Part shown: positions 6,459-61,075 of the stretch, piece by piece
Position numbering within the stretch: the first letter of the stretch is position 1
Layout: each line of letters opens with the position of its first letter
From: Alphaproteobacteria bacterium
GTDB lineage: Bacteria; Pseudomonadota; Alphaproteobacteria; UBA9219
DNA: 64,000 bases
Direction: 5' to 3'
NCBI GenBank assembly: GCA_026225415.1
Contig: JAMFSS010000009.1
Span: 62,001 to 126,000 of the forward strand
Made by a program: the position numbers and the translations under genes
Notes under the pieces: model-generated
Told to the model about the DNA's origin: nothing
Database searches by the model: none
The model's input: the letters and a program-made list of their open reading frames with translations, nothing else

Positions 6459-8120
6459 ATGACCGATGCCCGCGCTTTAAATAATATTTTGCATTTATTA
6501 TCCCCTCTTGATGATGCGCATATTCATGTTGATGTGCGTGAAGATTATGTGATGGAAACATCCATTGGATGCTTCAAATTGGCTTATTCCCCTGCCACCC
6601 ATTGCATGGCGTTGTTTTATGCGCGGCATCCCGATGATCTGGCTGCCTGTGACGATGAAACGGGTGCGCATGGCATTGCGCACAAAGATCACCTGACCCT
6701 TGTTAAAATGTTTCCGGTCAACCACGATATCCATGCCAAATGGAACAGCCAGGACAAGCGCCAACAATTCGAACTAAGCTGGGTCAGACGCGATCTGGCG
6801 GCGATGGCGCATGACATGCCGCGCATCCTGTTCCGCGAAGCCAATTTGCACCGCATCGACGAACGCACGCAAAGCTCCGTGTTCGTTGCCTATAAACAAA
6901 AACCATCAACCCTTGTGGATGGCGAATATAGTTTTGATATTGTCACAAAGACGGATGACAATTTCCGCTTAACCGGGATCGAATCCCCTCATGCCTCCGC
7001 TTCCTCATCGCCGGAAATTCGTCGAAGCTTATGGCTGAAGCTTTTCCGCGCGGCGGGCGCTTTCCTAAGCCGCCGCCATCATATCAACAGCTTCCCTCTT
7101 CAAAGCCACGATCCTATTACAGAAGAAAACCATACCTCGTTTAAAAAAGAAACTTTGGCGGATGTCACCGCAGCCGATCACGCCGTAAGATTACAACAAA
7201 TATGGGATGGGGTTGACCCTGTGCATTGGCGTGAGTCCAAGCTTTTGCCCGTTTACCGCGCAGGCAATGCCGTCCGTAAGAAGCTTGCGGATATTGGCGA
7301 AATGACCCGCAAAGACCCGGAAGAATTTTTGCGCCATATGGGGACGCAGGCAACGCATCTTTTTATTGATGGTTTCGCTTCGGTTCTTCTTTCGACCTTT
7401 ATCGATAAGGTCGGTGATTTCGGCGAAAAAGAAAAACGCGGCCAGGTTCCGGCAGAGTGGCACAAAATTGTCAGCAAAGGTTCGCGGCGATTGGTAACGA
7501 TTGATTCCGCCTTGCATAGAAATTTTATTCATCCCGACCCCAATCATTTCGGCGATTTGCGGTGGGTGAATCCGGATGAGCATCTGTGTAATTTCACAAC
7601 GGAAAACCACACTCTTTTGCCGATTGACCCGGCGCGTACCGCTAGCAATTGGACAAAGAGTCTTTTTACATCGCCTTATGCCAGTGCGTTTGATTATCAC
7701 GGCGAAGGTTATGTGGTTTTATCGCCTGCAGATTCCAGCAAGGTCAAAATCATGGCGATGCAAACATCGCATGGCGTAATGGCTTATTACGTGCCGGAGA
7801 CATTGACCTTGTATGCTTATTACAACCAACCAGATTATGAAACGCCCGATAGAAAATTGCCCGCCGATGCTGGCGATTATTTGCGAGCGGGTACGGTCTT
7901 GCGGTTCGATTTGAAAGACCGAAAATCTTTGATGACGCCAATGCCCTTCGAAGATTTCCAAAGCGAAATGCGCCGCGGTGCCCATGCGCCCGATCTTGTG
8001 TTGCCATCGGCCGATGCGCCAAAAAAGGATGTGATGAATGTGTTGAATATTCAGCCCGCGTTTCCGCTGCCAAACAAGGATGCGGCAGTGACGGTCAAGG
8101 ATGGCCCCAAGGCAGCGTAG
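6459..8120 (+). CDS. Hypothetical protein, 553 residues
   Basis: No family recognised. ATG at 6459 with AGAAGGA eight bases upstream. No signal peptide or membrane segment is apparent, so it is probably cytoplasmic. The N-terminal 170 residues (rich in His and Asp, with DDAHIHVDV) and the C-terminal 180 residues look globular. Between residues 180 and 240 is a Ser/Arg/His-rich linker that includes SPHASASSSP. The tail after residue 510 is Ala/Pro/Lys-rich and probably disordered. It has its own promoter and stops three bases before the stop of the convergent dioxygenase gene. It follows the PRTase-like gene in the same direction, but the spacing of 80 bp with a promoter argues against a tight operon. 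Confidence 0.7.
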   Translation: MTDARALNNILHLLSPLDDAHIHVDVREDYVMETSIGCFKLAYSPATHCMALFYARHPDDLAACDDETGAHGIAHKDHLTLVKMFPVNHDIHAKWNSQDKRQQFELSWVRRDLAAMAHDMPRILFREANLHRIDERTQSSVFVAYKQKPSTLVDGEYSFDIVTKTDDNFRLTGIESPHASASSSPEIRRSLWLKLFRAAGAFLSRRHHINSFPLQSHDPITEENHTSFKKETLADVTAADHAVRLQQIWDGVDPVHWRESKLLPVYRAGNAVRKKLADIGEMTRKDPEEFLRHMGTQATHLFIDGFASVLLSTFIDKVGDFGEKEKRGQVPAEWHKIVSKGSRRLVTIDSALHRNFIHPDPNHFGDLRWVNPDEHLCNFTTENHTLLPIDPARTASNWTKSLFTSPYASAFDYHGEGYVVLSPADSSKVKIMAMQTSHGVMAYYVPETLTLYAYYNQPDYETPDRKLPADAGDYLRAGTVLRFDLKDRKSLMTPMPFEDFQSEMRRGAHAPDLVLPSADAPKKDVMNVLNIQPAFPLPNKDAAVTVKDGPKAA

Positions 8121-8123
8121 TCA

Positions 8124-8831
8124 TTACTTATTTTTTGCCGTTACCACCAGCACATCGCGATAGGCTGGCTGGGAAATGTCGAGCGGCGTGACTGCCGTGA
8201 CGCCATGATAAACGCGATTATCATCGACCAAGGCGGCATCCATCGCCCCTGTCAGCGTAAAACTGCCGATCTCGTTACGGTTTAAATCATGAATGCTTGT
8301 CATGCCACTTTGGATGTTCTGGCGGCGGATCATCAACACCAAAACATAATCGCGCCCATCGCGATGCATGCCTTCGGGTGTTGGCTGGCCTTGTTCGCCC
8401 GCATGGGCTTCAATGCGAAACTGATGCGTTTCGATATGCCAGTTTTTGGCCGATGGATTAAACTGGCTAAACGCGTCATGACAAAAACGTAAGATTTTTT
8501 GCATGCTGTCGCTATCGCCGATAGTGTCGCGCATCGGTTCGAACCAACGTTCAATACCGCCATTGACCGGATTGTAATCAAGGCTTTGGTAATGCGGTTG
8601 ATGCGGCTGGCGGGTGATGGCCTCATTTTTCGCCTGATAAACGGCATAACGTCTTTTGCGGTAACGGCCTTGGTCGGCCATATAGGTATCGGTTTTCAGA
8701 TCGTTCCAGCTGTCGGCAAAAACATCCCAATCAGCTGGCGACACAGATAGCAATTGGCGCATGTCACCGGATGGCACAAAGGCAAAGCCGTTTTGCAGGA
8801 ATGTTTGTGTGATGTTTTCGGGAAGAGGCAT
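8124..8831 (-). CDS. 2-oxoglutarate/Fe(II)-dependent dioxygenase, 2OG-Fe_Oxy_2 (amino-acid hydroxylase) family
   Basis: Predicted non-heme iron oxygenase of the PF10014 group, whose characterised members hydroxylate free amino acids such as L-isoleucine. From the ATG at 8831 it has 235 residues, the normal size. The iron ligands are visible: His156 and Asp158 in PTPEGMHRDGRDYV, and His209 in NRVYHGVT; Arg225 in PAYRDVLVV is placed to bind 2-oxoglutarate. The family is scattered and its substrates vary, so I assign the enzyme class but not the substrate. It lies between an unknown convergent gene and tRNA-Lys on the same strand, with no biosynthetic partner nearby. Confidence 0.85.
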   Translation of the reverse strand: MPLPENITQTFLQNGFAFVPSGDMRQLLSVSPADWDVFADSWNDLKTDTYMADQGRYRKRRYAVYQAKNEAITRQPHQPHYQSLDYNPVNGGIERWFEPMRDTIGDSDSMQKILRFCHDAFSQFNPSAKNWHIETHQFRIEAHAGEQGQPTPEGMHRDGRDYVLVLMIRRQNIQSGMTSIHDLNRNEIGSFTLTGAMDAALVDDNRVYHGVTAVTPLDISQPAYRDVLVVTAKNK

Positions 8832-8850
8832 AATTTTATTTCTAACAGCC

Positions 8851-8872
8851 CGCCTTCGCAAAAGCTACGGCG
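8851..8872. repeat. 22-nt imperfect palindrome, copy 1 of a dispersed hairpin element
   Basis: Imperfect palindrome with CGCC at one end and GGCG at the other around an AAAA centre. It matches 16 of 22 positions of the element at 49639-49660. Four of the six differences form two compensating stem pairs (positions 2/21 and 6/17); the other two lie in the loop. It lies between the dioxygenase start and the hairpin following tRNA-Lys. Confidence 0.5.
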
Positions 8873-8876
8873 CGGC

Positions 8877-8903
8877 ACTTTCAAACGCTTCGCGTTTGAA
8901 AGT
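8877..8903 (-). terminator. Hairpin immediately 3' of tRNA-Lys
   Basis: Perfect 12-bp inverted repeat (ACTTTCAAACGC with a 3-nt loop) that touches the last base of the tRNA CCA end. Position suggests a terminator or 3' processing signal for the tRNA transcript. There is no T-run after it on the minus strand, so intrinsic termination is not certain. Confidence 0.5.
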
Positions 8904-8978
8904 GGTGGGCGATCGGAGGCTCGAACTCCGGACCATGTGATTAAGAGTCACGTGCTCTACCAACTGAGCTAATCGCCC
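8903..8978 (-). tRNA. tRNA-Lys (anticodon CUU)
   Basis: Read on the minus strand it folds as a complete cloverleaf of 76 nt: a seven-pair acceptor stem starting GGGCGAT and closing ATCGCCC, D arm GCTC-AGTTGGTA-GAGC, anticodon loop CTCTTAA giving anticodon CTT, and T arm CGGAG-TTCGAGC-CTCCG. Discriminator A is followed by an encoded CCA. The outermost anticodon-stem pair (C-A) is a mismatch; the other four pairs are intact. It reads AAG (and AAA by other isoacceptors elsewhere). A strong hairpin follows directly. Confidence 0.97.
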
Positions 8979-9299
8979 TCACTATCTCCTGCCAAACCAG
9001 AATCGCTTGCTTGCAAGCGTGGTGTGGAGGCGGGTTCGTAAAACAAATAAGGGGGAATGTCTAGGATATTTAGGGATATAGGGTCTGAATTAAAAAGTCC
9101 TTTGCCGCCCTATCCGCCCCACCGTCTTAACGGGGTAGAGAACACCACCTTTAGGACGGCAACCAAAACGTCAATAAAACAACCGATCCCTTCGCAGTTG
9201 CGGAATCGAAATAGTTGAAATTGCATACAAATCCTAATCGAATTTTTAATTATTAAAGACATACTGGTCATGTTAACGATTGGATATCAGGAATCATAA
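8979..9299. other. 320-bp intergenic region with nested inverted repeats
   Basis: No open frame worth calling. It holds a perfect 7-bp inverted repeat CGCTTGC-tt-GCAAGCG (9004-9019) just upstream of the tRNA, and a larger nested structure. In that structure TTGCCGCCCTA (9102-9112) pairs with TAGGACGGCAA (9152-9162) with one mismatch, enclosing CCGT/ACGG (9122-9125 with 9130-9133) extended by two G-C pairs past a bulged A. The last 80 bp are AT-rich and end with AGGA before the ATG at 9300, so they probably contain that gene's promoter. Confidence 0.5.
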
Positions 9300-10550
9300 A
9301 TGACCATCAAGGCGAACCTTTCAAGCTTGGCGCGGCATATAGGCCGTCCGCGCAATCTTGTCGCCCTTTTTGTTGGCATTACCGCTTTGTCCGTTTGGGG
9401 CGTTTACGGGATGCAGATTATCTCGACCCTGAACCCCCAATTGGGGCATGAGCTGGAAGTGGCCGCCCACCCTGCCTTGGATGTGTGGATTACCTCGCCG
9501 ATCGCGGACGCCTCACCCATCATCATTTCCACCCCCGCCGGCGTGCGGTTTGAACATGACACCATCACGCTGCCCCAAGGCAGCACCATCAGCGCGCATC
9601 TGGGCGAACAAGACGGCGAAACACCTGAATTGATCGTGGATGGCGACGCGCAGGAATTTACCACCGACGCGCATGGCGATTTCGCCGCGACAGCCGCCCT
9701 GACCGACGGCAAAAAAATTTCGATCCGTCGCGGCTGGATGGTTTTGGCGACGTGGAAAATCCGCATCATGCCCGATACGCCGCCACAGGTCGCGTTGACG
9801 GCTGCACCAGCCATTACCGAAAGCCACAGCGTGCGCGTGGCATACAAGGCAACCGATGATTACGGCGTGACCGATGTCGCGCTTCGTATCACGCCGCGCG
9901 ACCCGATGCCGGGCGCAAATAACACGCCGGTTGATATTGATTTGCCAACAGCATCATCCAAAGAAATTGCCCGCGTCGATTTCGCCGATCTGACCTCGCG
10001 CCCCTGGGCAGGACAAGAAGTACAGATGCAAATTGTCGCGACCAATGAAGCGGGCAAAGAAGGCGTTAGCGATGCGGTTGATTTTACCCTGCCCGAACGC
10101 CGTTTCTATCACCCCGTGGCGCGGTTGTTGGTGGAAGAACGCAAGAAATTGATGTTGCACCCAGATGATGATGGTTTGCGTCAGGAAACAGCGAATATCA
10201 TGGCGGGTATCGCCCATGAAACCGCCGATTTCCATAACGACCCTGTTGTGATGATGGCGTTGCGGTCGGGCGCGGTGCGGTTGGTTTTGGCGCATGACCA
10301 TGACGCTGTTATTTCAGTCAATGATATTTTATGGCAAGCCGCGACGCGTATCGAAGATGGCGCGACGGGCACCGCGCAACATACTTTGCGCGATGCGCAG
10401 CAGGATCTGGCTGATGCGTTACGCCACGGCGCAGGTAAGCAGGAAATTGATATTCTCAGCGACCATTTACAGGCGGCGATGGATGCCTATCTGTCGCACA
10501 TCATCACCCGCCCGAAATCGGCGATGTCCATGCGGGTCAAGGAAGACTAA
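9300..10550 (+). CDS. DUF4175 (TIGR02302) family protein, shortened form
   Basis: Alphaproteobacterial membrane-anchored protein of unknown function. The 416 residues match the N-terminal and middle portions of the family: a membrane segment at about 19-40, VWITSPIADASPIII in the place of the family WITPPAYTGRPP motif, TDDYGVTDVALRI, SRPWAGQEVQMQIVATNEAGKEGVS, LPERRFYHPVARLLVEERKKL, LWQAATRIEDG and LADALRHGAGKQEI. Family members usually run to over 800 residues with a long Gln/Gly-rich C-terminal half; here the frame stops soon after the LxDHLQAAMDAYL helix. Whether this is a natural short form or a truncation is unclear; no remnant of the missing half is seen downstream. Confidence 0.8.
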   Translation: MTIKANLSSLARHIGRPRNLVALFVGITALSVWGVYGMQIISTLNPQLGHELEVAAHPALDVWITSPIADASPIIISTPAGVRFEHDTITLPQGSTISAHLGEQDGETPELIVDGDAQEFTTDAHGDFAATAALTDGKKISIRRGWMVLATWKIRIMPDTPPQVALTAAPAITESHSVRVAYKATDDYGVTDVALRITPRDPMPGANNTPVDIDLPTASSKEIARVDFADLTSRPWAGQEVQMQIVATNEAGKEGVSDAVDFTLPERRFYHPVARLLVEERKKLMLHPDDDGLRQETANIMAGIAHETADFHNDPVVMMALRSGAVRLVLAHDHDAVISVNDILWQAATRIEDGATGTAQHTLRDAQQDLADALRHGAGKQEIDILSDHLQAAMDAYLSHIITRPKSAMSMRVKED

Positions 10551-22614: not shown

Positions 22615-23181
22615 ATGGGTGTCCACGTGAAAAAGCTTTCCTCCCTTCTCGCTCTTCTGGTCGGTATTGCCGCCGTTGCTCCGGCGCATGCCGCCGCCTC
22701 CACACCCAACACCATCAACGCCGCCTTTGGCGCCTATGATTTTGATAAAACCGGTGGCCGGCAATCGGTTGATTACCGTTTGGAATATGAATGGGGTCTG
22801 TCTTTGATCCCTTTGATCGACCATGATTGGACGAGCCTTGACCAATGGGTGCAGGTGCATCCCGTTGTTGGCTTTGAAGGAAATGGCGATTTCATGACCT
22901 ATTTCAACGGCGGTTTGGGGGCTGATGTGCCGCTGGGCAGCAAGTTTGTTTTCAGTTGGGATGAAGCGCTCGGCCTCTATGGCCATGGCGACAGCAGGCA
23001 ATCGCTGGGCTCGCCGTTTGAAATGCGCTCGCAGCTTGAGCTGGGCTATAATTTCGACAACAGCATGCGCCTGTCGGCCTATATCAGCCATTTGTCGAAT
23101 GTCGATACCGGCGATAAAAACCCCGGCGCCGAAATTGCCGGCGCTTATCTGCATGTGCCCGTGTCCTGGCTTGCGCACTGA
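22615..23181 (+). CDS. PagL-like lipid A 3-O-deacylase (acyloxyacyl hydrolase)
   Basis: Outer-membrane beta-barrel enzyme predicted to remove the 3-O acyl chain from lipid A. The 188-residue protein begins with a signal peptide (KKLSSLLALLVGIAAVAPAHA). The catalytic signature of the family is present near the C-terminus: YISHLSN with His159 and Ser161, and NPGAE with Glu173. The body is strand-rich with aromatic belts, as expected of an eight-strand barrel. Its stop shares a base with the lpxI start (TGATG), coupling a lipid A modifying gene with a lipid A synthesis gene. The exact start (22615 or a GTG shortly after) is not settled. Confidence 0.82.
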   Translation: MGVHVKKLSSLLALLVGIAAVAPAHAAASTPNTINAAFGAYDFDKTGGRQSVDYRLEYEWGLSLIPLIDHDWTSLDQWVQVHPVVGFEGNGDFMTYFNGGLGADVPLGSKFVFSWDEALGLYGHGDSRQSLGSPFEMRSQLELGYNFDNSMRLSAYISHLSNVDTGDKNPGAEIAGAYLHVPVSWLAH

Positions 23182-23999
23182 TGGCTGCGGCGCGGCTTGG
23201 CATTATAGCGGGTAGCGGCACAGCACCGCGCCGCGTTATCGAAGCCTGCCGCGCGCAAGGCCGCGACTTTTTTGTTTTTTGCCTTGAAGGGCAAGCCGAC
23301 AAAGATATGGCGCATGATGCACCCCATCTTTGGTTGCCCTTGGGCGCCGGAAGCAAATTGCGCGATGGGATACAATCCGAAAAAATCACCGAAATCGTGA
23401 TGATCGGCGCGGTGCGCCGCCCTTCGGTATGGGAACTGAAACCCGACTGGCTGAGCCTGAAAGTCATCGGCCGCATCGGCATGAATATGTTGGGCGATGA
23501 CGGGTTGTTGCGCGCCATCGGCCACGCCATTGAACAGGAAACCGGCGCGAAGGTAATCGGCGCCCATGAAATTCTGGGCGGCATTTTGATGCGCGAAGGC
23601 GTGTTGGGCATTATTTCCCCCGATGCCGATGCCCAGCAAGATATCAAGCGCGGTATAGATGTCGCCCGCGCCCTGGGCAGTGTCGATGTCGGCCAATCGG
23701 TTATTGTGCAGCAAGGTCTTGTTCTGGGCGTCGAAGCCATTGAAGGCACCGATGCCCTTATCGCCCGCTGCGCCGCCCTGCACCGCGGCGGGCCAGGCGG
23801 GGTTTTGGTCAAATGCGCCAAACCGCAACAGGATGACCGGTATGATTTGCCCACGATTGGGGTGGATACCATTGAAATGGCTGCAAAATCAGGCCTGCGC
23901 GGTATCGCTTTGCAAGCCGGTCGCAGCCTGTTGATAGACCGCGACAAAGTGCGGCAATTGGCCGACGAAAAAGGGATTTTCGTTATCGGTGTGAATTAA
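23181..23999 (+). CDS. lpxI: UDP-2,3-diacylglucosamine pyrophosphatase LpxI
   Basis: Hydrolyses UDP-2,3-diacylglucosamine to lipid X, step four of lipid A synthesis; the non-homologous alphaproteobacterial replacement for LpxH. The 272-residue protein has LGIIAGSGTAPRRV at the N-terminus and, in the C-terminal domain, GVDVARALGSVDVGQSVIVQQGLVLGVEAIEGTDALI, GGVLVKCAKPQQD and PTIGVDTI, the most conserved parts of the family. It normally sits between lpxA and lpxB; here it follows a PagL-like gene, while lpxB is 34 kb away in fused form. Confidence 0.96.
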   Translation: MAAARLGIIAGSGTAPRRVIEACRAQGRDFFVFCLEGQADKDMAHDAPHLWLPLGAGSKLRDGIQSEKITEIVMIGAVRRPSVWELKPDWLSLKVIGRIGMNMLGDDGLLRAIGHAIEQETGAKVIGAHEILGGILMREGVLGIISPDADAQQDIKRGIDVARALGSVDVGQSVIVQQGLVLGVEAIEGTDALIARCAALHRGGPGGVLVKCAKPQQDDRYDLPTIGVDTIEMAAKSGLRGIALQAGRSLLIDRDKVRQLADEKGIFVIGVN

Positions 24000-24113: not shown

Positions 24114-26546
24114 ATGCCTGTCATTCTCGAGAAAAATCAAGTTGCCCAGCGTACATTGTTCCGCGATGTGCGTCCGATGTCGCAACGGTTTGGCCAATAT
24201 ATTTCCACCGATATTGTCGTCACGACCATAGCCATTGGCACGATCGCGCTTCTGTTCGCGGCGCCGCCACAATTTAGATCCTTTGCCGATCTGGCTGTGC
24301 CGTTGCTGTATTTCTATTTTAAATGGACGCTCAAACGACCCGTCGTGCTGCCTTTTAAAATGCCGCGTTATGCCAATCTGCCTGACCCGCATAATCCCGT
24401 TCCGGGCAAAACGGGGCCGGGGAAATCCGACGGGATTTTGTTTCTGGGCAATGCGTCGGATGATGGCGATGAAGATAATTTCGGCAAAGAAATCTGGTTG
24501 ACCAACAATGACGCCCGTACGCATATTCTGTATCTGGGCACCACCGGCGCCGGTAAAACCGAAGGGTTGAAATCCATGGTCACCAACGCTTTATGTTGGG
24601 GCTCGGGCTTTTGCTATACCGATGGCAAGGCCGATACGGATTTGTGGGCTTCGCTTTATTCGATCACGCGCCGTTTTGGCCGCGATGATGATATTCTTGT
24701 TCTGAACTATATGACCGGCAACTCGGATGATGGATCGACATCCAATTCGATGAATCCGTTTTCTAATGGCTCGGCGTCTTACCTTGCCAATCTTGTCGTC
24801 AATCTGATGCCGGATGCTGGCGGCGATAATGCTATGTGGAAAGAACGTGCCGTTGCGTTGATGTTCGCGCTTATGCCCGCTCTGACCTTCAAGCGCGACA
24901 AGCAAGGCATGTTGCTGGATGTCGGTATCGTGCGCGACCATTTGGAATTGCAGCCCATTATCCGTTTGTCGCGCGACCAAACAATGCCGCAACGCATTCT
25001 GCATGGGCTTGAAGGTTATTTGAACACCTTGCCGGGTTATGTTGGCGCGGCATTCGATGATGACGGCAATGAACGCCCGCCATCGCCCGATCAGCCGATG
25101 TATGACTTACAAGTTGCCCGTCAGCAGCATGGCTATCTGTCGATGCAGTTTACGCGTTCGATGCAATCGCTGGCCGATGAATATGGTTATATTTTCAAGG
25201 CCCAGCTGGCCGATATCGACGTTCTCGATCTGGTGTTGAACCGCCGCGTTTTAGTGGTGTTGATTCCCGCGTTGGAAAAATCGGGCGATGAAGCCGCCAA
25301 TCTGGGTAAAATTGTCGCGTCATGCCTTAAGGGGATGATGGGCGCCACGCTCGGCAACACGGTTGAAGGCGCATGGGAAAGCGCAATCGGCAGCAAGCAA
25401 ACCCATTCCAGCTCGTCCTTCATGACCGTGTTCGACGAAGTCGGTTACTATACCGCCGCCGGTATGGCCGTTATGGCGGCACAGGCGCGGTCATTAGGCT
25501 TTGCGCTTGTGTTCGCGTCGCAGGATTTGCCTTCGATGGAAAAACGTATCAAGCAGGAAGCGAAATCCATCGTCGGCAACTGTAACTTGAAAATTCTGGG
25601 TCGTATTGAAGATCCTACCGACACCAAAGAATTCGTGACCAAACATGGCGGCATGGTGTGGGTCACGGAAACGCGTGGTTTTACCGCACCATCCAATACT
25701 GTGGGCAGTTTGTTTTCGGCCATGCCCTTCCATGATGACCGCGGCGCAAGTTTCCAGGTTCGTCAACGCGTCGATTATGACCATTTGCGCGGCCAGCGCG
25801 AAGGCGAAGCGCATTTGCTGTTCGGTGATTGGGCGCACAAGGTGCAAATGTTTTATGCGGTGCCGGATAAGTCAAAAGCTTTGCGCGTACATCGCTTCCT
25901 GCCGGTTCCGGGTGTCACCAAATCGACCGAAGCGCGTGACCGCGTGATGCTGGAATTGGCGTCGCGCCTGAAAGACCCTTCATGGACGGCGGCGGGCGTG
26001 GCCGATGTGCGCGAAATGCCGGAAATCAATGTTATGGCGGATGCCGTTAAAAAAGCTTCGGCCAACAAAAATTCTGCATTGGAAATGGGCGCGATGAGCG
26101 TTGCCGCCACGGCCAAAATGCCGTCGGTGCCCAAAGTTATGGACGGCGAGCCAGAGCAACCTGCGGCGGCTGCGCCCAAAACCTATGGCGTTTCCGATAA
26201 TTTTGACAGGTTTGACGCGCCGGATGGCCGCCAAAATCCTTATAGCACTGGCGAAATGTATGATCCCGATATCGCAGCGCTGCGCGCCACGTTGCCGCCG
26301 CTTTATGAAGGTGATGAATTCGCGATCGATGAATTGGAACGCGCACCCGGTTATGCGGTCAACAAAGGCGCGCCCGCCTTTGCCGGTACGGATGCCGATC
26401 TGTCCGCCATTTTGCCAAGCTTTGGCGACAGCGAAGACACCGAAGAATTCAGCGCGATCGAATTGCCGGAAGAAATCAAGGCGGCTTTGGCGCAATCTGC
26501 GCAGCAGATGAATGAAGGCTTGCGCGGCAAGACAGACCGCAAGTAA
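24114..26546 (+). CDS. IcmO/DotL-type type IVB coupling ATPase (T4CP)
   Basis: Inner-membrane ATPase of the VirD4/TraD class, closest to DotL (IcmO) of type IVB secretion and to IncI TrbC-like coupling proteins. In these systems it recruits substrates to the secretion channel. The 810-residue product has two membrane segments (about 33-50 and 58-70), Walker A GTTGAGKT (142-149) and Walker B FMTVFDE (Asp441-Glu442) preceded by a Ser-rich stretch. SQDLPSMEKRI, ILGRIEDPTDTKEFV and the FGDWAHKVQMFYAVPDK region follow. The tail after about residue 610 is Ala-rich and then acidic (EFAIDELE, GDSEDTEEFSAIELPEEI), the place where Legionella DotL binds adaptor proteins. No other dot/icm gene is seen nearby. 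Confidence 0.85.
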   Translation: MPVILEKNQVAQRTLFRDVRPMSQRFGQYISTDIVVTTIAIGTIALLFAAPPQFRSFADLAVPLLYFYFKWTLKRPVVLPFKMPRYANLPDPHNPVPGKTGPGKSDGILFLGNASDDGDEDNFGKEIWLTNNDARTHILYLGTTGAGKTEGLKSMVTNALCWGSGFCYTDGKADTDLWASLYSITRRFGRDDDILVLNYMTGNSDDGSTSNSMNPFSNGSASYLANLVVNLMPDAGGDNAMWKERAVALMFALMPALTFKRDKQGMLLDVGIVRDHLELQPIIRLSRDQTMPQRILHGLEGYLNTLPGYVGAAFDDDGNERPPSPDQPMYDLQVARQQHGYLSMQFTRSMQSLADEYGYIFKAQLADIDVLDLVLNRRVLVVLIPALEKSGDEAANLGKIVASCLKGMMGATLGNTVEGAWESAIGSKQTHSSSSFMTVFDEVGYYTAAGMAVMAAQARSLGFALVFASQDLPSMEKRIKQEAKSIVGNCNLKILGRIEDPTDTKEFVTKHGGMVWVTETRGFTAPSNTVGSLFSAMPFHDDRGASFQVRQRVDYDHLRGQREGEAHLLFGDWAHKVQMFYAVPDKSKALRVHRFLPVPGVTKSTEARDRVMLELASRLKDPSWTAAGVADVREMPEINVMADAVKKASANKNSALEMGAMSVAATAKMPSVPKVMDGEPEQPAAAAPKTYGVSDNFDRFDAPDGRQNPYSTGEMYDPDIAALRATLPPLYEGDEFAIDELERAPGYAVNKGAPAFAGTDADLSAILPSFGDSEDTEEFSAIELPEEIKAALAQSAQQMNEGLRGKTDRK

Positions 26547-56350: not shown

Positions 56351-56474
56351 TATACGATTATATCTATCGGAACGGGCTCGATTCGCCTAGCCTTGTAACA
56401 AGAGGCCATTCCCTCTTGCATAACCCCCTATGAGCATTATAGTCGCCTCTCATCCATCTATTAAGGAATCTCTC

Positions 56475-57872
56475 GTGAAGGCTCTCAACAGTCTGGTTAT
56501 GTCTGGCCGCGAAGTGCTGCCAATCGTCGAAGGCGGCAAAGGTATTGCCGTATCCAACGGCGAAAGTTCCGGCGCATGGGCGGCTGCGGGTGGTATCGGC
56601 ACTTTTTCCGGCGTGAATGCCGACAGCTATGACGACAATGGCAAGATCCTGCCACAAATTTACAAAGGCAAAACACGCCGCGACCGTCATCATGAACTGG
56701 TCGCATTTGGCATTATAGGTGGCATTGCCCAAGCGCAAAAGGCGCACGAAATCTCCAACGGCCAAGGCCGTATCCACATGAATGTGTTGTGGGAAATGGG
56801 TGGCGCAGAACATATTTTGGAAGGCGTTCTGGCAGGCGCCAAGGGCACCATTCACGGCGTCACATGCGGCGCCGGCATGCCGTATAAGGTGGCGGAGATC
56901 GCCGCGAAATTTGGTATTTCCTATTATCCTATCGTATCATCCGCCCGCGCGTTCCGCGCTTTGTGGTTGCGCGCCTATAACAAGTATCGCGATGGTTTGG
57001 GCGGCGTGGTTTATGAAGACCCTTGGTTGGCAGGCGGCCATAACGGATTATCGAACAGCGAAGATCCAAAAATTCCCGAAGATCCGATGCCCCGCGTGGC
57101 AGCCCTGCGCACGCAAATGAACGAATATGGTTTGCAGAATGTGCCCATCATTATGGCGGGCGGCGTCTGGTGGTTATCGGATTGGGAACATTGGTTGGAC
57201 AACCCCGAAATTGGCCCGATTGCTTTTCAATTCGGCACCCGGCCTTTGTTAACGCAGGAAAGTCCCATTTCCAACGCCTGGAAACAGCGTTTGTTGACTT
57301 TGAAAAAAGGCGATGTTTTCCTGAACAAATTTTCCCCGACAGGGTTTTATTCATCTGCCGTCAACAACGCCTTTATCGAAGATTTGCGCGCCCGTTCCGA
57401 ACGCCAAATCGCCTACAGCCACGAACCCGTTGGCGCCCATACTGAAAGTTTCCAAGTTGGTGTCGTCGGCAATCCTGTGTTTTTAACCGCCGCAGATACG
57501 GCACGGAAAAATGCGTGGATTCAACAAGGCTTCACCAAAGTTTTGCGCACCCCTGACAGCACATTGGTTTTTGTCACGCCCGATAATGCGCGGCACATTC
57601 TGGCTGACCAATCCGGCTGCATGGGTTGTTTGTCGGCTTGCGGTTTTTCCAACTGGTCGCAGAATGAAAAAGGCACCACCGGACGCATGCCCGATCCGCG
57701 TTCTTTCTGCATCCAGAAAACATTGCAGAATATCAGCCATGATGGCGATGTTGAAAATTCATTGATGTTCTCTGGCCACAACGCCTATCGCTTTGCGCAG
57801 GATCCGTTTTACGCCAATGGTTTTGTGCCGACGGTCAAGCAATTGGTGGAACGCATCGCATCGGGGTATTAA
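56475..57872 (+). CDS. NAD(P)H-dependent flavin oxidoreductase / nitronate monooxygenase family
   Basis: FMN-binding TIM-barrel protein of the 2-nitropropane dioxygenase family. The 465-residue form from GTG 56475 fits homologues, which start with (K)ALKxGGREVLPIVEGGKG; here VKALNSLVMSGREVLPIVEGGKGIAVSNG. FMN-binding GVTCGAGMPYKV, VVYEDPWLAGGHNGL with the catalytic His, and MAGGVWW are seen. A C-terminal Cys cluster SGCMGCLSACGFSNW is a distinctive part of this subgroup. An ATG at 56430 is possible. AAGGA precedes the GTG. Its physiological substrate is unknown. lpxB-GT starts five bases later, which suggests a shared transcript. Confidence 0.85.
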   Translation: MKALNSLVMSGREVLPIVEGGKGIAVSNGESSGAWAAAGGIGTFSGVNADSYDDNGKILPQIYKGKTRRDRHHELVAFGIIGGIAQAQKAHEISNGQGRIHMNVLWEMGGAEHILEGVLAGAKGTIHGVTCGAGMPYKVAEIAAKFGISYYPIVSSARAFRALWLRAYNKYRDGLGGVVYEDPWLAGGHNGLSNSEDPKIPEDPMPRVAALRTQMNEYGLQNVPIIMAGGVWWLSDWEHWLDNPEIGPIAFQFGTRPLLTQESPISNAWKQRLLTLKKGDVFLNKFSPTGFYSSAVNNAFIEDLRARSERQIAYSHEPVGAHTESFQVGVVGNPVFLTAADTARKNAWIQQGFTKVLRTPDSTLVFVTPDNARHILADQSGCMGCLSACGFSNWSQNEKGTTGRMPDPRSFCIQKTLQNISHDGDVENSLMFSGHNAYRFAQDPFYANGFVPTVKQLVERIASGY

Positions 57873-57877
57873 TCCCC

Positions 57878-60181
57878 ATGAAGACACCTGTGTATTTCAT
57901 TATAGCAGGTGAAGCTTCGGGTGATTTACTGGGCGCGCGGCTGATGCGCGCGATGAAAGCCAAACAAGATAATGTGCGTTTTATCGGCATCGGCGGCCCG
58001 CAGATGGAAACCGAAGGGCTGAAATCTATCTTTCCCTATACCGAATTGATGCATTTCGGCGTTGTAGAAATTCTACGCCATATTCCGCATTTGTTGAAAC
58101 GCATTAAACAGACAGTGCGGGCGGTTATTCGGTCACAACCCGATGCGTTGATTACCATCGATTCGCCCGGCTTTACTTTCCGCGTCGCCAAACAGGTGAA
58201 AAAACTATCATCGATAAAAATTCCGCTTATCCATTATGTCGCGCCCACTGTCTGGGCATGGAAACCGGGACGCGCCAAAAAAATTGCGCAGTATCTTGAT
58301 CATTTGCTGGTCGTTTTGCCGTTTGAGCCGCCTTATTTCACGTGCGAAGGGTTGGCCTGCACCTTTGTTGGCCATTCGGTTGTTGAAGGCAATGCTGCAA
58401 AAGGCAATGGCGAAACCTTCCGCGCCGCGCACCATATTCCCGCCGATGCGCCGTTGCTGACTGTCTTGCCCGGAAGTCGTCACGGCGAAATTGCGCGGCT
58501 TATGCCCGTATTTCACGACACCCTCAAAATTCTGCGCCAACGGCATCCTGATTTGCATGTCGTTATCCCCGCCGTCGCCCATTTAAAATCGCACATCGCA
58601 CAGGTGACAGGCGATTGGGATTTGCCTGTGTATATCGTTGAAGGCGATACGGAAAAATATAACGCCTTTGCCGCGTCGCGCGTCGCGCTGGCTTGTTCGG
58701 GCACGATATCGCTGGAGCTTGCGTTGGCGCATTTGCCGCATATTATCGCTTACAAAATAAATAATCTGAGCGCGATGATCTATCGCCGTTTTATCCGCAC
58801 GCCTTATGTGAATTTGATCAACATCATGCAGGGCAAAAGGGTTGTGCCGGAATTTCTGCAGGAAAATTGCACGCCGGAAAAACTGGCCAACGCGATGGAT
58901 GTATTGTTGCGCGACGAAGCCACGCGGTTGGCACAAATTAAAATTCTGGCATCCACGGCAGAATGGTTGGGACAAGGGCAATTCGTTCCATCCGAACGCG
59001 CTGCGGAAACGATTTTAAACGTCACACGCAAACACGAACCCCCTGCCCTGCCCACCATTTTGCAGGTCGTTCCAGCCCTTGTCACAGGTGGGGTCGAACG
59101 CGGCACGATTGAAACCGTTGCCGCCTTGGTCAAAAATGGTTTTCGCGCCGTTGTCGCTTCATCCGGCGGGCCGATGGTGCAAGAAGTTGTGGCGGCGGGT
59201 GGCACACACATCACATTGCCGCTGAAATCCAAAAACCCCTTTACCATCTGGCGCAATATCGCACGATTATGCCGCGTTATCCGCACTGAGAAAATCGACA
59301 TTATCCATGCCCGCAGCCGCGCCCCGGCATGGAGCACGTATTTCGCCACCAGAAAATGCCATATTCCCTTTGTCACAACTTTCCACAGCGCCTATGGCGC
59401 AGGATCGAAAATAAAACGGCTTTATAATTCCGTTATGGCCAAGGGCGAACGCGCCATTGCCATTTCCGACTTTGTCGCTGATTACGCCGAGAAAACATAC
59501 AATGTATCGAGAAATATCATGCGTGTTATCCCGCGTGGCGTCGATATCGCGCAATTCGATCGCACGAAAATAGACGCATCGCGCATCGAAAATCTACGCC
59601 GCGCCTGGAATATTAAAGCGGGAACGCCGGTTATTTTAATGCCCGCGCGCGTCACAAGATGGAAAGGCCAATCGGTATTAGTGCAGGCCTTGGCACAAAT
59701 CAAACGCCGTGACTTTATATGCATCATTGTCGGCGGTGGCAAAGACACAAGTTATGGTCAGGAAGTGGCGCAAAAAATTAAACAGGCAGGCCTTGATACA
59801 AACATCGCCCTTATGGATACCTGCCGCGATATGGCGGCTGCCTATTGTTTGGCCGATATGGTGATTGTGCCTTCTATTCGTCCCGAAGGTTTTGGCCGCG
59901 TGGTGATCGAGGCACAGGCGATGGGCGCGCCAGTGATAGCCACCAATCATGGCGGCGCGCGCGAAACTGTGATTGAAGGTGAAACCGGCTGGCTGGTTGA
60001 ACCGAACAATGCCGCCGCATTGGCGCAATCGATCGATGCGACGCTTAATCTGTCGCCCAAAGCGCGGCAGGATTTGGCCGCGCGTGCCATTGCCCATATC
60101 CGCGCCCATTTCACCACGGATACGATGACATCAAAAACCATCGCGGTTTATCGCGAATTATTGCAAAAAGAGACGATTTAA
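57878..60181 (+). CDS. lpxB: Lipid-A-disaccharide synthase (LpxB) fused to a GT4 glycosyltransferase
   Basis: A 767-residue two-domain enzyme. Residues 1-385 are LpxB, which joins UDP-2,3-diacylglucosamine and lipid X: AGEASGD (10-16), RFIGIGGPQME, HYVAPTVWAW, VLPFEPPYF, LPGSRHGEI, SGTISLELAL and NIMQGKRVVPEFLQ. After a short linker (about 386-392), residues 393-767 form a GT-B family 4 glycosyltransferase: LQVVPALVTGGVERGTIE, RSRAPAW, PRGVDIAQFD, MPARVTRWKGQ and RPEGFGRVVIEAQAMGAPVIAT with the E-x7-E motif. No stop or frameshift is seen at the junction. The second domain could add a sugar to lipid A or to the inner core. It is five bases after the flavin oxidoreductase gene; lpxI is elsewhere. 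Confidence 0.93.
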   Translation: MKTPVYFIIAGEASGDLLGARLMRAMKAKQDNVRFIGIGGPQMETEGLKSIFPYTELMHFGVVEILRHIPHLLKRIKQTVRAVIRSQPDALITIDSPGFTFRVAKQVKKLSSIKIPLIHYVAPTVWAWKPGRAKKIAQYLDHLLVVLPFEPPYFTCEGLACTFVGHSVVEGNAAKGNGETFRAAHHIPADAPLLTVLPGSRHGEIARLMPVFHDTLKILRQRHPDLHVVIPAVAHLKSHIAQVTGDWDLPVYIVEGDTEKYNAFAASRVALACSGTISLELALAHLPHIIAYKINNLSAMIYRRFIRTPYVNLINIMQGKRVVPEFLQENCTPEKLANAMDVLLRDEATRLAQIKILASTAEWLGQGQFVPSERAAETILNVTRKHEPPALPTILQVVPALVTGGVERGTIETVAALVKNGFRAVVASSGGPMVQEVVAAGGTHITLPLKSKNPFTIWRNIARLCRVIRTEKIDIIHARSRAPAWSTYFATRKCHIPFVTTFHSAYGAGSKIKRLYNSVMAKGERAIAISDFVADYAEKTYNVSRNIMRVIPRGVDIAQFDRTKIDASRIENLRRAWNIKAGTPVILMPARVTRWKGQSVLVQALAQIKRRDFICIIVGGGKDTSYGQEVAQKIKQAGLDTNIALMDTCRDMAAAYCLADMVIVPSIRPEGFGRVVIEAQAMGAPVIATNHGGARETVIEGETGWLVEPNNAAALAQSIDATLNLSPKARQDLAARAIAHIRAHFTTDTMTSKTIAVYRELLQKETI

Positions 60182-60193
60182 CGGAGCCAAATC

Positions 60194-61075
60194 ATGCCGC
60201 AATCCCCTGCCCCATCTCTAGCCTTACAACACATTTCGGAAATGATGGCTGAATTGCGTGCCTACCAAACACGCCGCATCGTTATTAAAATCGGCGGCAA
60301 TTCCATCGCCGAGGATGAATTTTTTCTGTCAAAAATCGCGCGGCAAATTGTTTTCCTGAACACCAACGGCGTGCGCGTCATTTTGGTTCATGGCGGTGGC
60401 CCGCAAATTGATGATGCCTTGCGCGACAAAGGCATGAAAACATCCAAGGGCAAAGATGGCCGCCGCATCACATCACCCAAAGCCATGCAGGTGGTGGCGC
60501 AAGTGATGAAGCAAATGAATGCGCAGGTCGTAAAGGCATTGGTTGAGGCCGGATGCCCCAAGGACAAAATTTTTGCGGCAGCCAAGCAGCCCAAACCTTT
60601 GGTGATTGCCGAAAGCCTTGACCCGACAGACCCCAAAAATAACCGCAGCGGCCGCCCCCTTTCCGCCACTGCCGCGCCGATTGAACGCGCCCTGAACGAA
60701 GGAAAAATTGTCGTGTTGAATTCCATGGGCATCGGCACCGATGGCAAGACCAGCTACAACATCAATGGCGATGATTACGCGATGATCATCGCCAAATCCA
60801 TCAAAGCCAAACGCCTGATCCTGGTCACCAATGTCGCGGGCGTGCTTGACCGCAATCAGGAACGCATCCCCGTTATCGACCGCACAGCGGCGCAAAAACT
60901 GATCTACGACGGCGTGATCACCGGCGGCATGGTACCCAAAGTCGAATCGGCCTTGTGGGTCGTTAAACAAGGGGTGGGCGGCGTTGCCATTATTGATGGC
61001 TTCAACCCCTGGGCAATTCTTGCCGAGCTCCTTACACATCAAGGGCTTGGCACTCTTTTCCGGGCGCGTTTGTAA
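60194..61075 (+). CDS. argB: Acetylglutamate kinase
   Basis: Second step of arginine biosynthesis. The 293-residue protein has RRIVIKIGGNSIA, VILVHGGGPQIDDALR, GRPLSATAAPIERALNEGKIVVLNSMGIG, YNINGDDYAMIIAKSIKAKRLILVTNVAGVLD and GVITGGMVPKVESAL. The N-terminal helix of about 30 residues before the fold is the one used for the hexameric, arginine-inhibited form. Start ATG 60194, 12 bp after lpxB. Confidence 0.97.
   Translation: MPQSPAPSLALQHISEMMAELRAYQTRRIVIKIGGNSIAEDEFFLSKIARQIVFLNTNGVRVILVHGGGPQIDDALRDKGMKTSKGKDGRRITSPKAMQVVAQVMKQMNAQVVKALVEAGCPKDKIFAAAKQPKPLVIAESLDPTDPKNNRSGRPLSATAAPIERALNEGKIVVLNSMGIGTDGKTSYNINGDDYAMIIAKSIKAKRLILVTNVAGVLDRNQERIPVIDRTAAQKLIYDGVITGGMVPKVESALWVVKQGVGGVAIIDGFNPWAILAELLTHQGLGTLFRARL

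Follow-up and report, generated by a model that had tools for sequence, protein, structure and literature searches.

LpxB is an essential enzyme of lipid A synthesis and an antibiotic target. A long form of the protein (PRK01021 in NCBIfam), of about 610 amino acids, occurs in Chlamydia; its extra part is N-terminal and is not a family-4 glycosyltransferase (GT4). In Escherichia coli, LpxB (TIGR00215, PF02684) is a stand-alone enzyme that forms a C-terminally swapped dimer (PMC5785501). A fusion involving a lipid A enzyme has been described in Bacteroidetes, Chlorobi and Verrucomicrobia, where LpxC is joined to FabZ (PMC3087551).

Here, we describe a gene in which LpxB is joined to a GT4 enzyme, found in a window of 64,000 nucleotides of alphaproteobacterial DNA (contig JAMFSS010000009.1). 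Like the LpxC/FabZ fusion, it joins adjacent genes of the lipid A pathway, but it combines two glycosyltransferases rather than LpxC and a fatty-acid enzyme. The N-terminal half belongs to the same family as E. coli LpxB and has the same catalytic residues, whereas here a second GT-B enzyme is attached to the C-terminus that is swapped in the E. coli dimer. PRK01021 likewise places LpxB inside a longer polypeptide, but the score of our sequence lies far below the cut-off of that model. The first-pass annotation of this DNA knew of no bifunctional LpxB-GT4 enzyme, and in the open-access papers that we searched, we likewise came across none. The parts are of known kinds, and their combination appears to be new.

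The fusion gene (57878-60181, forward strand) is one open frame of 767 codons with an ATG start and no internal stops. The LpxB half, a GT-B lipid-A-disaccharide synthase, spans 57878-59032 (residues 1-385), as supported by PF02684, TIGR00215, the active site and the structural model; the GT4 half, also a GT-B glycosyltransferase, spans 59054-60178 (residues 393-767) and is identified by PF13439 and PF00534. The two are linked by a junction of about seven residues (386-392; 59033-59053), in which direct reading of the DNA revealed no ATG or GTG start and no ribosome-binding site. A domain search of the 767 residues, which had been suggested as a check, found Pfam LpxB at 7-351, Glyco_transf_4 at 404-558 and Glycos_transf_1 at 571-737, each of them far above cut-off. 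Together with TIGR00215 and the conserved residues, it bears out the original claim that a complete LpxB and a complete GT-B glycosyltransferase with the E-x7-E motif are encoded in a single frame. In a single-chain structure prediction (mean pLDDT 93.4, pTM 0.64), DSSP assigns the end of the last LpxB helix to residue 385 and the start of the first GT4 strand to residue 393. Both halves are confidently modelled, the LpxB half mostly with pLDDT above 90, and their predicted placement relative to each other is uncertain, given the pTM.

The N-terminal half scores 361.8 bits against PF02684 in Pfam and 280.3 bits against the lpxB equivalog TIGR00215, above its cut-off of 190.25. The active-site residues of E. 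coli LpxB are E15, S17, D98, R201, T277 and E281, and N316 is part of the swapped C-terminal segment (PMC5785501). Their counterparts here are E12, S14, D95, R201, T276, E280 and N315, and all of these are invariant across the aligned fused and unfused sequences. A Foldseek search matched this half, at 32% identity, to the E. coli LpxB structures 5W8N, 5W8S and 5W8X; the high rmsd against these chains may stem from the swapped C-terminus of that dimer. From its sequence, we predict that this half functions as LpxB and would condense lipid X with UDP-2,3-diacylglucosamine.

The C-terminal half scores 106.9 bits against PF13439 and 126 bits against PF00534, both above the Pfam cut-offs. Its E-x7-E motif is formed by E670 and E678, which are present in all 49 alignment rows with letters at these positions. 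Among the 25 NCBIfam matches listed for this half, no specific equivalog is above cut-off, and its substrate therefore cannot be named from profiles; the PEP-CTERM/XrtA glycosyltransferase model TIGR03088 was rejected at 124.3 bits against a curated cut-off of 409. The nearest solved relative is 7mi0 from Rickettsia africae (Z 45.6, rmsd 2.8 over 374 residues; 38-40% identity), an orthologue of the normally stand-alone alphaproteobacterial GT4. Unlike the GT4 half described here, 7mi0 is a stand-alone chain, and the title of its entry states no function; neither did we find a functional assignment for the stand-alone GT4 in the open-access papers searched (Rickettsia, Brucella core enzymes). 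The C-terminal half is a predicted retaining-type GT4, whose orthologue is a normally stand-alone enzyme found across the class.

Fusion proteins sometimes retain one inactive half, whose role here would be limited to that of a membrane or assembly domain for its partner. That general precedent has no direct support at this locus, and we regard a dead half as very improbable: all of the catalytic residues that we checked are invariant in both halves, and the fusion encodes the sole LpxB of the 2.0-Mb host genome. Both halves also show the same pattern of constraint by codon position. Between the genome of the window (G000) and its relative G006, divergence at codon positions 1, 2 and 3 is 0.27, 0.16 and 0.48 in the LpxB half and 0.23, 0.18 and 0.54 in the GT4 half, which indicates that both are under constraint.

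We carried out a census of 33 genomes of the order, 10 of which belong to genus g1. The two genes are fused in 8 genomes, tandem on the same strand in 20, convergent in 1 (G010) and apart in 2 (G004 and G011), with 2 undecided (G007, at a contig edge, and G017, in fragments). Besides G000, the in-frame fusion was found again in G001, G002, G003, G005, G006 and G008, making up 7 of the 10 members of g1, and, in another family of the order (f3), in G024; G008 is interrupted by contig edges, yet is fused across the LpxB/GT4 junction. All fused relatives have both halves in one frame, with no stop and no start/stop junction. In ten tandem genomes, including G009 of the same genus, the stop of lpxB overlaps with the start of the GT4 gene in the four bases ATGA, and it is this or a close stop/start junction that tandem relatives carry where the fusion has its seven-residue junction. 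The absence of a fusion from G009 and G004, both of g1, implies that it is not required. No LpxB-GT4 fusion was seen outside the order in samples of 385 genomes of the class and 398 of the phylum. A 24,183-codon ‘open frame’ in G100, which overlaps a stretch reading N (8001 of 16001 bases), was not taken to be a gene.

This census bears directly on whether a sequencing or assembly error has joined two separate genes. A one-base indel would suffice for that, and G009 does have two overlapping frames, but the fusion is in frame in eight genomes of the order and its junction sequences differ, so that we consider an artefact ruled out for all practical purposes. The first-pass annotation had raised two ways in which its reading might fail. 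A sequencing error hiding a stop is contradicted by the same in-frame fusion in independent assemblies. Relatives with split genes, its second concern, do exist, but their separate lpxB and GT4 genes are likely to represent the ancestral state.

Some other arrangements were seen during the census. In G010, the GT4 gene, on the opposite strand, separates lpxB from the GT9 gene, as though inverted in place. G023, G027 and G029 each have two GT4 copies, one of them adjoining lpxB, and GT4 copies are found near msrA/msrB-like genes in G004, G023 and G027.

A single origin of all fusions was rejected by the AU test on both the GT4 tree (p 1.3e-14) and the LpxB tree (0.0027), which rules out one clade of all fused sequences. 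In the GT4 tree, the GT4 of genus g1 groups with that of G015 and the class-wide orthologue, and the GT4 of G024 with the other tandem GT4 genes of the order. The AU rejection and these two branches lead us to conclude that the same pair of genes has been fused at least twice, in g1 and in G024. Within g1, a single origin is not rejected (AU p 0.09 and 0.25; 0.26-0.32 on the concatenated halves); the unfused G009 and G004 fall among the fused members, a placement that leaves open whether the genes may have been split again or fused in several events. The LpxB of Holosporales forms a distant clade relative to that of this group.

We propose that lpxB and the GT4 gene started as adjacent genes, translationally coupled through the ATGA overlap, and that small indels then removed the stop and joined the two frames, an order of events that we infer. 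This would have been repeated at least once more with a GT4 gene from a different branch. The relatives display states between separate and fused genes and offer a clear case of overlapping genes becoming one.

In the window, the fusion is preceded at a distance of 5 bases by a nitronate monooxygenase-like gene (56430-57872, forward; PF03060) and followed after 12 bases by an argB-like gene of the amino-acid kinase family (60194-61075, forward; PF00696). The upstream neighbour is common to G001, G002, G003, G005 and G008, and the downstream one to G001, G003, G005, G007 and G009. The lpxI gene (23181-23999, forward; PF06230/PF17930), which supplies lipid X to LpxB, is 34 kb from lpxB here and directly before lpxB in relatives. 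Several relatives of the order have the gene run lpxI, lpxB, GT4, GT9, preceded by genes called dxr/rseP/bamA-like from length and order alone, and in the relatives of families f1-f3 the GT4 gene comes after lpxI-lpxB. Around lpxI in the window, a PagL-like lipid A 3-O-deacylase gene (PF09411) lies directly before it with a 1-base overlap (the pair spans 22615-23999, forward), and a gene at 24114-26546 (forward) encodes an 810-aa protein resembling type IV secretion coupling proteins (NF041447 TrbC, 367 bits, below the cut-off of 800).

The host genome carries WaaA and LpxK genes side by side, has kept LpxI and has several GT9 genes. Near waaA-lpxK, there is also a 687-aa frame (7283-9346 of its locus) in which a GT4-like N-terminal half is followed by about 300 residues of another domain. 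With LpxK and WaaA present, 4'-phosphorylation and Kdo addition most likely take place after the LpxB reaction and before that of the GT4, an order that argues against channelling of the product from one half to the other. Two of the original suggestions fare poorly in this light. The idea of two successive steps by LpxB and GT4 is not supported: these enzymes are present, and outside the order the GT4 orthologue is mostly a separate gene. The idea that the GT4 adds a non-Kdo first core sugar is likewise disfavoured, and Kdo is the expected first core sugar, since LpxK and WaaA are retained.

A related possibility is that the GT4 half acts on the disaccharide made by LpxB, so that one protein would carry out two consecutive steps and yield a lipid A with an extra sugar. 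Some Alphaproteobacteria are known to have a lipid A that carries sugars, and the physical fusion of the halves, its repetition and the overlap of the two genes in relatives would all suit such an enzyme. The retention of LpxK and WaaA does not, nor does the wide occurrence of the same GT4 family in genomes where it has no linkage to lpxB, and we hold this to be quite unlikely.

The distribution of the GT4 across the class carries information on its acceptor. Among 144 class genomes, with GT4 presence scored at E <= 1e-60, the orthologue is found in 97 of the 126 with LpxB vs 3 of the 18 without (Fisher p 1e-6, uncorrected for kinship). It adjoins GT9 heptosyltransferase-like genes in part of the class, and in G070 it follows a fabZ-lpxA-lpxI-lpxB run, with two small genes between. 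We infer an LPS-core acceptor from this co-occurrence and from the gene neighbours. The GT4 half might instead serve another glycan, such as an exopolysaccharide, a glycolipid or a protein glycan, the fusion being a neutral by-product of gene order. In keeping with this, the class-wide GT4 often stands, together with GT9, beside thrS, infC, rplT, pheS and pheT (names assigned by reading the sequences) and not LPS genes; three genomes carry it with no detected LpxB; and its fold neighbours in a structure search include exopolysaccharide, mycothiol and bacillithiol enzymes. The co-occurrence with LpxB and the GT9 heptosyltransferase-like neighbour count against it, as does repeated fusion to the same partner, which argues against pure chance even though adjacency alone makes repeats easier. 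On balance, another glycan seems unlikely.

The GT4 family also takes part in other long frames. In G034, which belongs to a different family of the class, the same GT4 family is joined to its usual partner GT9, and not to LpxB, in one 810-aa frame (6639-9071 of its locus), and in G170, of the same genus as G034, the GT4 lies within a 778-aa open frame.

The explanation that we consider probable is that of a bifunctional protein, LpxB plus an LPS-core GT4, which arose from coupled neighbours and whose benefit lies in supply and placement. The GT4 half would most likely add an LPS-core sugar after LpxK and WaaA have acted, and the likely gain would be fixed 1:1 production and a shared placement at the inner membrane, rather than direct passage of product from site to site. 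That LpxB has at least twice become joined to a glycosyltransferase of one type suggests that synthesis of the disaccharide and a later glycosylation step are functionally connected. It also hints at what a widespread alphaproteobacterial GT4, present in Rickettsia too, may do. In this group of small-genome Alphaproteobacteria, the fusion probably ties the supply of lipid A to outer-membrane sugar assembly at a later step.
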